Source of the DNA: Gemmatimonadota bacterium
GTDB taxonomy: Bacteria > Gemmatimonadota > Gemmatimonadetes > Gemmatimonadales > GWC2-71-9
Direction: 5' to 3'
DNA: 41,476 bases
Assembly: GCA_016209985.1 (NCBI GenBank)
Contig: JACQVB010000233.1
Coordinates: forward strand, 1-41,476
Shown: positions 1,985-41,476 of the stretch, one piece after another
How the letters are laid out: every line of letters starts with the position of its first letter
How positions within the stretch are numbered: position 1 is the first letter of the stretch
Notes under the pieces: generated by a model
Seen by the model: the letters and a program-made list of their open reading frames with translations, nothing else
What the model was told of the DNA's origin: nothing
The model's database searches: none
Position numbers and translations under genes: made by a program

Positions 1985-3151
1985 ATGAGGGGAACAGCTA
2001 CGACGCGCACCGCCGATGTCGTCATCATCGGCGGCGGCATCATGGGTGCGAGCATCGCGTACCATGTCGCCAGGCGGCGCGCCGGACGGGTCATGCTGCT
2101 GGAACGGGCCGACATGTTCGGCACCGGGTCGACCGGTGCCAACGCCGGCGGGATGCGGCACCAGTTCTCCACCGCAGTCAACATCGAGCTGTCTCGCCTG
2201 AGCATCGCGATGATGGAGCGTTTCCCCGAAGAAATGCATCAGGAGGTCGATCTCAACTTCTGCGGTTACCTGTTCCTGTTGGATAACGAGGCCGATATGG
2301 CCGTGTTCCGCCGGAACGTGGCATTGCAGCATCGCCTGGGCGTGCCGACTCGTTTGCTGAACCCTGACGACATCCGGGAGCTGGCTCCCCTGTTTCGGCT
2401 GGACGACATTGTGGGCGGTACGTTCTACGATCGGGACGGGCTGGCCGATCCCAGCGGCGCATTGCAGGGCTACCTGGCCCAGGCTCGCGCGTTGGGCGCC
2501 GAACTGCGGACCGGCGAGCCGGTGACCGCGATTCGAAGCGTGGCCGGCCGGGTGACCGGGGTATCGACATCGGCGGGTGAGATCGACGCGCCGGTGGTGG
2601 TCATCGCGGCGGGGCCGTGGTCGGGCGAGGTGGGGAAGCTCGCCGGCATCGACCTTCCCGTTCAGCCGGTTCGGCGTCAGATCGCGGTGACTCGACCGAT
2701 TCCCGGCATCGATCGGTCCTTTCCGTTCACGATCGATTTCACCCGGTCGCTGTACTTTCATTATGAGAGCGGCGGGATACTCACCGGCATGTCTGATCCT
2801 GACCAGCCGCCCGGGTTCGACACGTCGGTGGACCCTGACTGGCGCCTGGCCCATATCGAGCAGGCGGTGAACCGTCTTCCTTTATTGGAGACGGCAGAGA
2901 TCCTGACTGAGTGGGCGGGATTGTATGAGGTGACGCCGGACGATCAGCCCATCCTCGGGCGATTACCCCAGTTGGATGGGTTGTTTGCGTGTACCGGGTT
3001 CAGCGGGCACGGATTCATGCAGGGGCCGGCCAGCGGCCTGGTGATCGCGGAAGAGATCGTCGACGGCCGTGCCCACACGATAGACATCGATCCACTGCGG
3101 TGGGACCGGTTCGAAAAGCACGCGGCGGTGGCCGAGTACAACGTGATCTAG
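1985..3151 (+). CDS. FAD-dependent amine/amino-acid oxidoreductase (DAO family), DAO1
   Basis: A 388-aa flavoenzyme. The N-terminal Rossmann motif VVIIGGGIMGASIAYHV (residues 12-28) binds the ADP part of FAD. The protein then shows the DAO signature order: a GSTGANAGGMRHQFST loop, a substrate-domain strand, VVIAAGPWSG at the second FAD contact, PVRRQIAVTRP, and the C-terminal TPDDQPILGRLPQ / FACTGFSGHGFMQGPASG segments. This resembles sarcosine-oxidase beta-subunit or glycine/D-amino-acid oxidase relatives, which oxidise a secondary or primary amine. The natural substrate is unknown. There is no lipobox or signal peptide, so it is probably cytoplasmic. Its final 88 bp recur at 7957-8044, and the last 240 bp of a close paralogue survive at 15088-15330, partly inverted. 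Confidence 0.85.
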   Translation: MRGTATTRTADVVIIGGGIMGASIAYHVARRRAGRVMLLERADMFGTGSTGANAGGMRHQFSTAVNIELSRLSIAMMERFPEEMHQEVDLNFCGYLFLLDNEADMAVFRRNVALQHRLGVPTRLLNPDDIRELAPLFRLDDIVGGTFYDRDGLADPSGALQGYLAQARALGAELRTGEPVTAIRSVAGRVTGVSTSAGEIDAPVVVIAAGPWSGEVGKLAGIDLPVQPVRRQIAVTRPIPGIDRSFPFTIDFTRSLYFHYESGGILTGMSDPDQPPGFDTSVDPDWRLAHIEQAVNRLPLLETAEILTEWAGLYEVTPDDQPILGRLPQLDGLFACTGFSGHGFMQGPASGLVIAEEIVDGRAHTIDIDPLRWDRFEKHAAVAEYNVI

Positions 3152-3230
3152 CGTTCCTGCCTCCTGTCATGGCGGTGCAAGCATGTCGCCGCAACTCGCG
3201 GCAGGGTTCCTGCGACTTTCTGGAGCGATG

Positions 3231-7741: not shown

Positions 7742-7875
7742 GCATCGACGGTGCGGCGACCCGTTCCCTGATCCAGTACCTGGACGCGAACCACTTTCGC
7801 TGGCTGCTGTCAGTTCCCAACGGTAGCGGCTGGGTCCAGGTCCTCGAAGTGGTATACAGCCGTCAGGCGCGCTGA
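7742..7875 (+). pseudogene. C-terminal relic of an unidentified gene
   Basis: An open frame without a start codon ends at TGA 7873-7875 and reads like a genuine protein end (ATRSLIQYLDANHFRWLL, then SVPNGSGWVQVLEVVYSRQAR). Nothing upstream in frame continues it, because the dehydrogenase gene begins on the other strand at 7663. I take it as a leftover 3' end brought here by recombination. Family not recognised. Confidence 0.35.
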
Positions 7876-7890
7876 CCATCGGTGACGCCA

Positions 7891-7952
7891 AGGGACGCCG
7901 GAGTTTAACTCAGCCTCAGCCGTCAGAACAAACCCTTGTCGCTTCAGCGACA
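7891..7952 (-). repeat. Degenerate tRNA 3'-end repeat with adjoining hairpin
   Basis: On the plus strand GGGACGCCGGAGTTTAACTC (7892-7911) is close to the tRNA-half repeat TCGGGACGCCGGGATTTGA found six times further right, and it has the same orientation. About 25 bp later comes a 16-bp hairpin, TGTCGCT-TC-AGCGACA (7937-7952). The order (tRNA end, then hairpin) parallels the copies at 15460 and 41293. The match is imperfect, so membership in the family is tentative. Confidence 0.35.
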
Positions 7953-7956
7953 GATA

Positions 7957-8044
7957 GCCGTGCCCACACGATAGCCATCGATCCACTGCGGTGGGACCGG
8001 TTCGAAAAGCACGCGGCGGTGGCCGAGTACAACGTGATTTAGCG
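7957..8044 (+). pseudogene. Detached last 88 bp of DAO1
   Basis: This block repeats the last 83 bp of the DAO1 gene plus a few following bases (3069-3154), with only two evident differences (GAC to GCC, and ATC to ATT just before the stop). It encodes the oxidoreductase tail RAHTIAIDPLRWDRFEKHAA and the stop codon, with no gene body in front. Homology begins abruptly at GCCGTGCCCACACG and ends right after TAGCG. The near identity suggests a recent copy. It lies just after the degenerate tRNA-type repeat. Confidence 0.8.
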
Positions 8045-8700: not shown

Positions 8701-9948
8701 ATGACTCGACGCTGCGTCCTGCTGGCGACGCTTATGATGTTCCCGACCGGCGCTTTTTCCCAGCAGCGGTGGACGCCCCCGGATTCCGCGCTGCTCGCCA
8801 GGGCCAGGGCGCTGCTGGAACAGGTGCCCTTCGTCGATGGCCACAACGACCTCCTGGATTACGTCCAGGAGAACCTGGGCAGCGATCTCTCCCGGGTCGA
8901 TCTGTCGAAGCGCCAACCGGGGTTTCCGGCCGACATTCCGGCCCTGCGGGAGGGGCGGGTCGGAGTGCAGTTCTGGTCGGCGTATGTGTCGGCCGACTCG
9001 ATCCGCACCGGTGGCGCGTTGCGCCAGGCGCTGCGCTCCATCGACCAGGTGCAGCAGCTGATCGAGGCCTACCCGGAGTTCGAGTTCGCCCGCACGGTGG
9101 ACGACATCGAGCGAATCCATCGGAGCGGCAAGATCGCCTCGCTGATCGGGTTCGAAGGGGGGCACGGGATCGACAACACCCTCTCCGCGCTGCGCATCTT
9201 TTACCGTCTTGGCGTGCGGTACATGACCCTGACGCATTTCCTGACGATCGACTGGGCCGATGCCGCGACGGATTATCCTCGCCATCACGGGCTCACCGAC
9301 TTCGGCCGGGAGGTGGTGCGGGAGATGAACCGCCTGGGGATGATGGTGGACCTCGCCCACGTGAGTGCCGAAACCATGCGGGACGCGATCAAGACGAGCC
9401 AGGCCCCGCTGATCTTTTCGCATTCCGGCTCGCAGGCCATCAACAGCCATCCCCGGAACGTGCCGGATGACGTCCTGCGGATGCTGGCGAAGAACCGCGG
9501 GGTGATCATGGTGGACTTCATTGCGGCGTACACGCCGCCTAACGCGCCGGCCTGGGCCTCGGCGCGCGACTCGGTGCTCCGGCAGGCGCATGCCGAGCTG
9601 GCGTCGGACAGCGCCATCGCCGCCCGGGTCGCCAACTGGGAGCGCCGCAATCCCGAACCCCGCGGGACGGTGGCCGATGTGGCCGATCACATCGATCACA
9701 TCCGCCAGGTGGCCGGAATTGACTATATCGGCATCGGCTCCGACTTCTACACCCCCGCCCCCATCGCGATGGCTGTGGGGCTGGAAGATCCCAGCAAGTT
9801 CCCCAACCTTTTCGCCGAGCTCATCCGCCGAGGCTACAAGGATGACGACTTGAAGAAGATCGCGGGCCTCAACTTCCTCCGTGCCATGCGCGAGGCGGAG
9901 CGGGTGGCGGCGAAACTCCAGGGGACCGAGCGCCTGAAGTCGGAGTAG
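8701..9948 (+). CDS. Secreted membrane-dipeptidase-like enzyme (peptidase M19)
   Basis: A 415-aa exported metallopeptidase with an N-terminal signal (LLATLMMFPTGAFSQQ). M19 landmarks appear in order: VDGHNDL with zinc ligands His48 and Asp50, SLIGFEGGHGID carrying the bridging Glu, YMTLTHF, MVDLAHVS, PLIFSHSGS and YIGIGSDF. Known M19 enzymes hydrolyse dipeptides, including those with a C-terminal D-residue, in the periplasm. The frame is open upstream to 8512, but ATG 8701 is preferred because it starts the signal peptide. The final TAG overlaps the GTG of a DAO-type start (9948), so a peptidase-oxidase operon once continued here. Confidence 0.88.
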   Translation: MTRRCVLLATLMMFPTGAFSQQRWTPPDSALLARARALLEQVPFVDGHNDLLDYVQENLGSDLSRVDLSKRQPGFPADIPALREGRVGVQFWSAYVSADSIRTGGALRQALRSIDQVQQLIEAYPEFEFARTVDDIERIHRSGKIASLIGFEGGHGIDNTLSALRIFYRLGVRYMTLTHFLTIDWADAATDYPRHHGLTDFGREVVREMNRLGMMVDLAHVSAETMRDAIKTSQAPLIFSHSGSQAINSHPRNVPDDVLRMLAKNRGVIMVDFIAAYTPPNAPAWASARDSVLRQAHAELASDSAIAARVANWERRNPEPRGTVADVADHIDHIRQVAGIDYIGIGSDFYTPAPIAMAVGLEDPSKFPNLFAELIRRGYKDDDLKKIAGLNFLRAMREAERVAAKLQGTERLKSE

Positions 9949-14939: not shown

Positions 14940-15087
14940 CTAGACGTTAAACCACACCCCGTACCCCTTCGCCCTCAGCTCCAATGCCAGGTTCCGCTCG
15001 CTCAGCTCGGCCTCATCGCGCGTAAGCGCGGGATACCGGCGATAAAACTCCGGCCGTAACCGAACGCCATATCGATAGATCTTGTCC
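14940..15087 (-). pseudogene. C-terminal relic of an unidentified gene
   Basis: On the minus strand an open frame without a start ends at TAG 14940-14942 and reads like a conserved protein end: DKIYRYGVRLRPEFYRRYPA, then LTRDEAELSERNLALELRAK, then GYGVWFNV. It joins directly, head to head, with the DAO relic that starts at 15088. There is no upstream coding sequence. Family not recognised. Confidence 0.45.
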
Positions 15088-15330
15088 GAATGGGCGGGTT
15101 TGTACGAAGTGACGCCGGACGATCAGCCTATCCTCGGACGATTATCCCAGCCGGAGGGGTTGTTTGCGTGTACCGGGTTCAGCGGGCACGGCTTCATGCC
15201 AGGGCCGGCCAGCGGCCTGGTGATCGCGGAAGAGATCATCGACGGGCGTGCCCACACGCCGTTGTACTCGGGTACCGCGGCGTGCTGCTTGAACCGATCC
15301 CACCGAAGGCGATCGATGTCTATGATTTAG
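15088..15330 (+). pseudogene. 3' relic of a DAO1 paralogue with an inverted 64-bp segment
   Basis: The segment reproduces the last 240 bp of a DAO1-like gene (WAGLYEVTPDDQPILGRL, FACTGFSGHGFM, GPASGLVIAEEI). Up to 15258 it aligns collinearly with DAO1 2907-3079. From 15260 to 15323 the sequence is instead the reverse complement of the equivalent 64 bp of DAO1 (3080-3143), matching at 54 of 64 positions with no gap. The collinear stop codon follows. Read back in its original orientation the inverted part encodes IDIDRLRWDRFKQHAAVPEY, a plausible variant of the DAO1 tail. There is no gene body upstream. Confidence 0.85.
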
Positions 15331-15375
15331 CGTGCTGCTTTCCTGCCCGGGCACAGTGGTCGGGCCCCGCGTTGG
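15330..15375. repeat. 46-bp repeat, copy 1 (second copy at 24022)
   Basis: Starts GCGTGCTGC and contains GTGGTCGGGCCCCGCGTTGG. It matches 24022-24065 at about 38 of 46 aligned columns with two single-base gaps, in the same orientation. Copy 1 begins directly after the stop codon of the DAO relic. Origin unknown. Confidence 0.45.
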
Positions 15376-15430: not shown

Positions 15431-15504
15431 GAACGAACAGGGAGGGCCTGCTCGTTTAGTCGGGACGGCCGGGACTTGATGGCGAAGCACAGCGAGTGCT
15501 GGCC
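15431..15504 (-). repeat. tRNA-half repeat, copy A, with terminator-like hairpin
   Basis: TCGGGACGGCCGGGACTTGA (15460-15479) is the reverse complement of a tRNA T-arm plus 3' acceptor, with one extra G. To its left (downstream of the tRNA end) is a hairpin, GAACGAACAGG / CCTGCTCGTT (15431-15456), resembling the hairpin of copy C. To its right the T-loop is interrupted by an insertion containing the hairpin AGCAC-AGCGA-GTGCT (15486-15500), after which tRNA homology is lost. Confidence 0.6.
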
Positions 15505-23344: not shown

Positions 23345-23484
23345 CTATTCGCTCATTTCCCGCAACACCGCGAGTGGCGTCTTGCGCAGCACCTCTCCCG
23401 AGTTGGCGAACCCGATCACCGTGGTGAGAACGCAGACCGCGAGCCAGACCACCGCGAGCTGGACCGCCGGCAGTGGGCAGACCT
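23345..23484 (-). pseudogene. C-terminal relic of an FtsX/MacB-like permease
   Basis: On the minus strand the frame ending at TAG 23345-23347 reads PAVQLAVVWLAVCVLTTVIG, FANSGEVLRKTPLAVLREMS and E. This is a final membrane helix followed by the 'xPLAVLRE' end typical of large ABC-transporter permeases. No gene body exists. Its other side runs directly into tRNA-half repeat copy B. Confidence 0.6.
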
Positions 23485-23497
23485 GCTCGCCGTTGAG

Positions 23498-23528
23498 TCG
23501 GGACGCCGGAATTTGAATCCGGGACCCC
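23498..23528 (-). repeat. tRNA-half repeat, copy B (uninterrupted T-arm)
   Basis: TCGGGACGCCGGAATTTGAA then TCCGGGACCCC, the reverse complement of a T-stem/T-loop and 3' acceptor strand. Unlike copies A, D1, D2 and E it has a complete T-loop. To the right it continues TATCCACATGATG, only loosely like the anticodon region of copy C. No 5' half of a tRNA is found within the next 150 bp. Confidence 0.6.
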
Positions 23529-25873: not shown

Positions 25874-25965
25874 GCGGCGAAGATCCTCCCGAGGCAGCCG
25901 CGCCGCGATTTAGATCGGGAATGCCAGCGAGGGGTGGCGGGAAGTAAGCCGGCGGATGGATACGA

Positions 25966-25994
25966 GAACGAGCAGGCGGCTGGCCTGCTCGTTC
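25966..25994 (-). terminator. Perfect 12-bp palindrome, probable tRNA terminator remnant
   Basis: GAACGAGCAGGC, loop GGCTG, GCCTGCTCGTTC: 12 paired bases without mismatch. It lies 5 bp beyond the 3' end of the tRNA half at 26000, on the downstream side, where a tRNA gene's terminator would be. A related hairpin stands at the same place beside copy A. Confidence 0.6.
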
Positions 25995-25999
25995 GAGAA

Positions 26000-26104
26000 T
26001 CGGGACGCCGGGATTTGAACCCGGGCCCCTGAACCCCATTCCGCTCAGGGGAAATACCAAGGACGTCAACTTGTCGATTTCATAGAGGGTTCCGAGCATC
26101 GGCG
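26000..26104 (-). repeat. tRNA-half repeat, copy C: T-arm, anticodon side and att-like flank
   Basis: The best preserved copy. On the minus strand 26040-26000 reads, in order, loop AATGGGGT (T33, anticodon GGG), stem TCAGG, variable GGC, T-arm CCGGGTTCAAATCCCGG and acceptor CGTCCCGA. This is the 3' half of a tRNA with a GGG (proline) anticodon. Homology stops inside the anticodon loop, and the 5' half is replaced by unrelated sequence. The flank 26041-26104 is similar to 41407-41470 (shared GAGGGG or CAGGGG, GTTCCGAGC, TCGG). Breaks inside anticodon loops are typical of integrase attachment sites. Confidence 0.65.
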
Positions 26105-30609: not shown

Positions 30610-30738
30610 CAAAAGCAAAACGTCCAACCTCACGAGTGCAGCAAGATCGAGCGTTCAGTGAGTCGGGACGCCGGGATCTGACTGCGAAGTACAGCGAGCA
30701 GCGCCGGAGGCGCGCGCAGCTGCACCCGGGACCCCGTG
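30610..30738 (-). repeat. tRNA-half repeat, copy D1, with conserved flank and T-loop insertion
   Basis: TCGGGACGCCGGGATCTGA (30663-30681) is the tRNA 3' end on the minus strand. The T-loop is then interrupted by about 42 bp including a GCGCC-GGA-GGCGC hairpin, after which CCCGGGACCCC resumes the T-stem. On the left, 30615-30660 holds a conserved 45-bp flank (GCAAAACGTCCAACCTC, then GCAAGATCGAGCGTT), shared with copies D2 and E. Confidence 0.65.
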
Positions 30739-34488: not shown

Positions 34489-34519
34489 GTGCCGCCTCGG
34501 AGAGGAGTGAAGGAGACCA

Positions 34520-34623
34520 GGATTTGATAGCGAAGCATCTCCGCTTTTGCTAACCGTTCCTCGGCGTCAGCGAATCCGAGGTCGGCAAAAAGCATTACCA
34601 GTGCTGGGTTCGATGGAAATCAT
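34520..34623 (-). pseudogene. Decayed HigA-type antitoxin start
   Basis: From ATG 34623 (AAGAAGGAT upstream) the frame reads MISIEPSTGNAF. One extra T in a run of five shifts the frame, after which [20 protein letters not shown] follows, the usual opening of HigA-like XRE antitoxins (NxFADLGFxxAEExLxKAEL). The helix-turn-helix domain is missing: homology ends near 34520. There the sequence CTTCGCTATCAAATCCTGG resembles the T-arm side of the tRNA-half repeats. Confidence 0.55.
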
Positions 34624-36907: not shown

Positions 36908-37012
36908 CCAAAGCAAAACGCCCAACCTCGCAAACATCTGCAAGATCGAGCGTTAGTGAGTCGGGACGCCGGGATTTGATTGCGAAGCGCAGCAACTCGC
37001 CTCGGGATCCCG
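36908..37012 (-). repeat. tRNA-half repeat, copy D2, with conserved flank and T-loop insertion
   Basis: TCGGGACGCCGGGATTTGA (36961-36979), the tRNA 3' end on the minus strand. The T-loop is interrupted by an insertion holding GCGA-AGCGCAGCAAC-TCGC, then a degraded T-stem (CTCGGGATCCCGC). The left flank 36912-36957 (GCAAAACGCCCAACCTCGCA, then CTGCAAGATCGAGCGTT) is nearly the same as beside copies D1 and E. Confidence 0.65.
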
Positions 37013-41235: not shown

Positions 41236-41476
41236 GAGGCACGAAACCAAACGTCCAGCCTCGCAGTATCTGCAAGATCGAGCGTCGTTGAGTCGGGACG
41301 CCGGGATTTGATCGGAATGGTACGAGCCGCAGGCGAGTACCGACGAAGAACGCGCTTGGGTCAGTGGCCCGAGCGCGTTCAACCCGCGACCCCCTGAAAC
41401 CCCATCAGGTTTGAGGGGTGACTATTAACGACAACATGTCGGCGTTTCAACGAGTTCCGAGCGTCGGTCCCGACAT
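41236..41476 (-). repeat. tRNA-half repeat, copy E, with two hairpin insertions and att-like flank
   Basis: The conserved flank (CAAACGTCCAGCCTCGCAG, then CTGCAAGATCGAGCG) precedes TCGGGACGCCGGGATTTGA (41293-41311). The T-loop is then split by two hairpins: GGTAC-core-GTACC (41319-41341) with core GAGCCGCAGGCGA, and GAACGCGCT/AGCGCGTTC (41348-41380). The T-stem resumes (AACCCGCGACCCCC), then CTGAAACCCCATCAGG gives the anticodon stem-loop with GGG. From 41407 the sequence is similar to the flank of copy C. The window ends within this flank. Confidence 0.65.

Follow-up and report, generated by a model that had tools for sequence, protein, structure and literature searches.

In-place microinversion of some 65 bp in the 3' end of an oxidoreductase pseudogene from a Gemmatimonadota bacterium

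Microinversions described from human-chimpanzee comparisons (PMC8755829) and, reportedly, from birds (PMC3123225) are exact in-place reverse complements of tens of bases (17-33 bp), with collinear flanks and short inverted repeats at or near their edges; the inner edges of these repeats fall no more than about 5 nt from the boundaries (PMC8755829). An established class of mutation consists of short template switches, which can invert a spacer or create a palindrome (PMC8604942, PMC7954356), and work on such template-switch mutations has also been reported for E. coli (PMC7202029, PMC6357072). Segments in reverse orientation are also a feature of invertible switches, such as phase-variable promoters and gene ends. 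Judging by title and abstract, no paper on bacterial microinversions as such was on point.

The locus described here, the relic of an oxidoreductase gene, resembles the vertebrate microinversions in being an exact reverse complement between collinear flanks, and may share with them the short inverted repeats near the edges. It differs in its length of 65 bp, in residing in a bacterial pseudogene, in being recognized from a paralogue rather than an orthologue, and in having junctions that are not the simple product of a repeat exchange. With template-switch and quasipalindrome mutations (PMC7954356, PMC8604942, PMC7202029) it shares apparent local reverse-complement copying, and its 7-bp insertion, which perfects a hairpin, is reminiscent of the classical fold-back signature; in contrast to these mutations, its tract is long and the inverted-repeat arms at the flip edges measure only 4 bp. 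Unlike the invertible switches, it has no long inverted repeats, no nearby recombinase and no evident function, and is seen in one orientation. It adds a further, clean example to a kind of mutation that is already known.

The window, i.e. the whole stretch of DNA analysed, spans 41,476 nucleotides and contains an intact gene, DAO1, that serves as the reference paralogue, together with the relic and other gene debris (Table 1). A second intact gene of the DAO family (PF01266; 11286-12581) is distant, with about 24-30% identity to the DAO1 relatives with which it was aligned. The initial annotation had described the relic as collinear with DAO1 from 15088 to 15258, followed by a 64-bp exact-length reverse complement of DAO1 3080-3143 and a stop codon that is collinear again. 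All of this holds except for the start, which was placed slightly too far downstream. An 88-bp duplicate of the DAO1 3' end had been overlooked; it terminates 2 nt past the stop and carries ATT rather than ATC before the stop, as does the relic. BLAST against the whole genome (4.64 Mb, 289 contigs) recovered no significant further copies of the DAO 3' end or of the relic outside the window.

Table 1. Coordinates of the DAO paralogues, the inverted segment and neighbouring remnants in the window
Feature	Position	Strand	Remarks
DAO1	1985-3151	+	Intact FAD-dependent oxidoreductase gene, reference paralogue; PF01266, Pfam E 9.6e-82
Fragment Y	7813-7956	-	Open, C-terminal-like reading frame; sole relative weak (E 0.009); head to head with the 88-bp copy
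88-bp duplicate of DAO1 3' end (3066-3153)	7957-8044	+	Forward orientation; 98% identical, E 9.1e-37 in own genome
Gene X, C-terminal fragment	14943-15074	-	44 aa, open; proteins from 7 related genomes show 46-55% identity; abuts the DAO relic head to head
DAO relic, collinear part	15077-15258	+	182 bp matching DAO1 2898-3079 at 90%; E 2.9e-66 within the genome
Microinverted segment of DAO relic	15259-15323	-	64 bp matched to DAO1 on the opposite strand, plus junction base 15259
GCGTGCTGCTT, inside the inverted segment	15280-15290	+	In the turned-back arrangement, arm of an 11-bp hairpin with 15330-15340
Collinear end of DAO relic, GATTTAGCG	15324-15332	+	Stop TAG at 15328-15330; matches DAO1 and the 7957 copy
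TGCTGCT, 7-bp insertion relative to DAO1 (TAGCG/TTCCTGCC)	15333-15339	+	Just 3' of the stop
tRNA-Pro 3'-end remnants	15432-15493, 23468-23526, ~25960-26030, 30612-30695, 36910-36993, 41244-41320; weak 34513-34536	same strand	

An ungapped alignment of DAO1 3080-3143 with the reverse complement of 15260-15323 has 54 identical positions out of 64 (E 3.6e-13 in a genome-wide BLAST); when 300 shuffled segments were tried in the neighbourhood, the best attained 33 of 64. The edit distance separating DAO1 from the relic is 43, and falls to 22 once one in-place inversion is allowed. For such an inversion the best single intervals are 63-65 bp long; that of 65 bp (DAO 3080-3144) is length-neutral and leaves one mismatched base, 15259, at the left junction. 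The relic combines an exact-length reverse complement with collinear flanks: the 3' end of this truncated paralogue carries a single microinversion in place, about 65 bp long, which has apparently become fixed. We also considered an inverted copy of DAO1 pasted into the relic and rejected it, given the segment's own 16% divergence and the length-neutrality of the event. As divergence from DAO1 does not differ significantly between the inverted and collinear parts of the relic (Fisher p 0.25), the simplest reading is that DNA of the relic itself was turned where it lay.

The ancestral orientation was assessed with 26 relatives, drawn from Gemmatimonadota, Chloroflexota and Acidobacteriota contigs and from genomes of the same order. 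All 26 possess a forward-type C-terminus, mostly ending in ...IDIDxLRW/YxRF...EYNV[IV], ...EKNVV or ...ETNIF, and none shows the flipped tail. A profile of these relatives scores the collinear part of the relic alone at 102 bits, the relic with its tail as it stands at 101 and the relic with its tail turned back at 132.5, so that the turned-back tail adds about 30 bits and the as-is tail nothing. Because the relatives' C-termini are of the forward type and the profile gains only from the turned-back tail, the forward orientation is ancestral and the flip derived. An intact paralogue whose C-terminus is encoded by the flipped sequence, which would have refuted the earlier reading, was sought, but no such protein turned up. 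When 288 genomes of the order were searched at the DNA level, they yielded no closer DAO copy and no closer relative carrying the paralogue, the best long match having about 75% nucleotide identity; the DAO 3' end was matched once each in the 12 related genomes that have the gene. No conserved synteny showing the ancestral neighbourhood was detected in the relatives' loci that were compared.

The substitutions in the relic bear on the timing of the flip. In its turned-back state the segment carries 10 changes relative to DAO1; of these, 6 are synonymous and 4 nonsynonymous, against a random expectation of about 2.5 and 7.5 respectively (P = 0.014 for the segment alone). Over the entire relic 10.5 of 28 changes are nonsynonymous, a value as low as which was reached in none of 2000 simulations, and dN/dS relative to DAO1 is about 0.18, with similar values for the collinear and turned-back parts. 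Most of the divergence, to which the DAO1 branch contributes and whose branches are inseparable on 84 codons, thus seems to have accrued while the segment was forward and under constraint. The mainly synonymous divergence of the turned-back segment, together with the forward tails of the relatives, bears out the earlier proposal that a functional paralogue diverged first and flipped afterwards. Some amino-acid changes in the relic fall at conserved positions (P>S, L/V>P, NV>NG), which is consistent with its decay. Either the gene was already broken before the flip or the flip helped to disable it; the flipped product has no evident function, and the evidence supports no functional consequence.

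The initial annotation had further noted that long inverted repeats are lacking and that only a CACG/CGTG pair marks the edges. The first part stands, as inverted repeats in the flanks do not exceed 6 bp and the longest are not at the edges. Since these repeats measure only 4-6 bp, homologous inversion of the RecA type is very unlikely, as had been supposed. The CACG/CGTG pair is real in DAO1-like sequence, flush with the left edge and overlapping the right edge by 2-3 nt; it is weak evidence, as by chance 36% of random 64-bp segments would have some 4-nt pair close to their two edges, and 3.8% one placed as tightly as here. Moreover, the junctions are not a simple product of that pair: an exchange at CACG/CGTG predicts CACG-TTGTAC...TCTAT-CGTG, whereas the actual sequence is CACGCCGTTGTAC...TCTATGATT, and the junctions, which read CACGCCG...TATGATT, do not look like a clean product of microhomology. 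The relic also contains an exact 11-bp direct repeat, GCGTGCTGCTT, with one copy inside the inverted segment and the other at 15330-15340. The second copy consists of the TGCTGCT insertion and its flanking GCG and T; a repeat this long at such spacing occurs at 5 of 1118 comparable places in the window (p ~0.005, found post hoc). With the segment turned back, the two copies pair as an 11-bp hairpin whose loop contains the right flip edge (fold z -2.3, compared with +1.1 for DAO1). The 3' end of intact DAO1, which was also examined for an unusual hairpin, has none (z ~+1.1).

The location of a flip edge in a hairpin loop and the 7-bp insertion seemingly copied from the flipped segment lead us to favour, with moderate confidence, a replication template switch as the origin of the microinversion. 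During replication the nascent strand would have left its own template near CACACG (15258), used the opposite strand to copy some 65 nt, and switched back at GATTTAG; TGCTGCT might represent a second short templated copy, produced by fold-back from the flipped segment before or during the flip. Four points count against such a template switch: the flip junctions show no clear microhomology product; yeast spacers were observed to invert only between arms longer than 9 bp (PMC8604942); template switching has been argued to be hard at repeats of 3-4 nt (PMC8755829); and the 11-bp repeat, noticed only afterwards, would arise by chance with odds of about 0.5%.

The chief rival is that two double-strand breaks freed the 65-bp piece and Ku/LigD end joining religated it reversed, altering one junction base. 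As the genome has adjacent genes for Ku and a large LigD-type protein (C76:35888-36932), this stays a serious alternative, albeit a less likely one. End joining would fit a flip that is length-neutral, alters 1 nt at a junction and involves no homology, and the region holds other apparent illegitimate joins, namely the abutting head-to-head fragments X/DAO and Y/DAO. These junctions were overlooked previously, and they point to past deletions or illegitimate joins around the DAO copies. Against this explanation, two breaks 65 bp apart with retention of so tiny a fragment are improbable, the same objection having been raised in PMC8755829, and end joining leaves the templated-looking 7-bp insertion unexplained. 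A distinctly less probable route is microhomology-mediated break-induced replication, the mechanism proposed for human-chimpanzee microinversions (PMC8755829), acting through CACG/CGTG after one break inside the segment. The position of this pair at the edges of the DAO1-like sequence lies within the -5 to +4 range of that study, and its tight placement has the low chance frequency given above; however, the junctions do not correspond to a simple product of the 4-mers, and a loose pair of this kind is common in random segments.

The surroundings of the relic provide the context for the remaining explanations. The window contains about six degenerate tRNA-Pro 3' ends, all on one strand and 2.5-8 kb apart, some with a terminator-like hairpin. 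Compared with the intact tRNA-Pro genes on contigs C44 and C185, most of these remnants start at the T-loop TCAAATCC, and one lies about 85 bp past the DAO relic; no Rfam match in the window attained the gathering score. Outside the window, the 84-bp tRNA-Pro remnant repeat has just one other strong copy, at C6:2650-2725, perhaps on a neighbouring contig of the same island. At C185:655-9503 an intact tRNA-Pro(TGG) stands beside a tyrosine integrase domain (8832-9317), and 8.8 kb off, at 655, there is a 3' fragment of tRNA-Pro. An intact tRNA, an adjacent integrase and a distant tRNA 3' fragment are reported to be the usual anatomy of a tRNA-targeted island (PMC4383910), and the region on C185 is likely to be a tRNA-Pro(TGG) island. 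Taken together, the remnants in the window and the anatomy of the C185 region suggest that repeated integrations at tRNA-Pro probably built up the window as an island, the 3' ends being what is left of the attachment sites of tandem integrations; the window's own contig has no integrase match. Such integrations could be the source of the gene debris.

One could suppose that the DAO 3' end is an integration or recombination target in this lineage and that the flip is a by-product of recombination there rather than of replication; the copies at 3066-3153, 7957-8044 and 15077-15332 would then mark unit boundaries beside att-like tRNA-Pro remnants. We consider this very unlikely. An assembly or amplification artefact is a still slighter prospect: the data come from a single fragmented assembly of 289 contigs, but short-read assembly should not flip a unique 65-bp segment with 4-bp flanking repeats without molecules spanning both junctions, and at 16% divergence the segment is not a misplaced DAO1 read. 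Least credible is a programmed, site-specific inversion by an invertase or integrase at the gene end, serving as a phase-variable switch, for although the DAO 3'-end copies and tRNA-Pro remnants indicate that integrases probably acted here, the genome has no match to a serine recombinase of the resolvase family and six to tyrosine recombinases, none of them on this contig, the inverted repeats near the edges are short of recombinase-site length, the target is a pseudogene, and the related genomes yielded just single matches to the DAO 3' end.

The microinversion catalogues that we found concern vertebrates. A bacterial pseudogene beside its intact paralogue, as encountered here, provides a readable before-and-after of such an event, and this suggests that comparisons of paralogues with their relics could serve to survey microinversions in bacteria.
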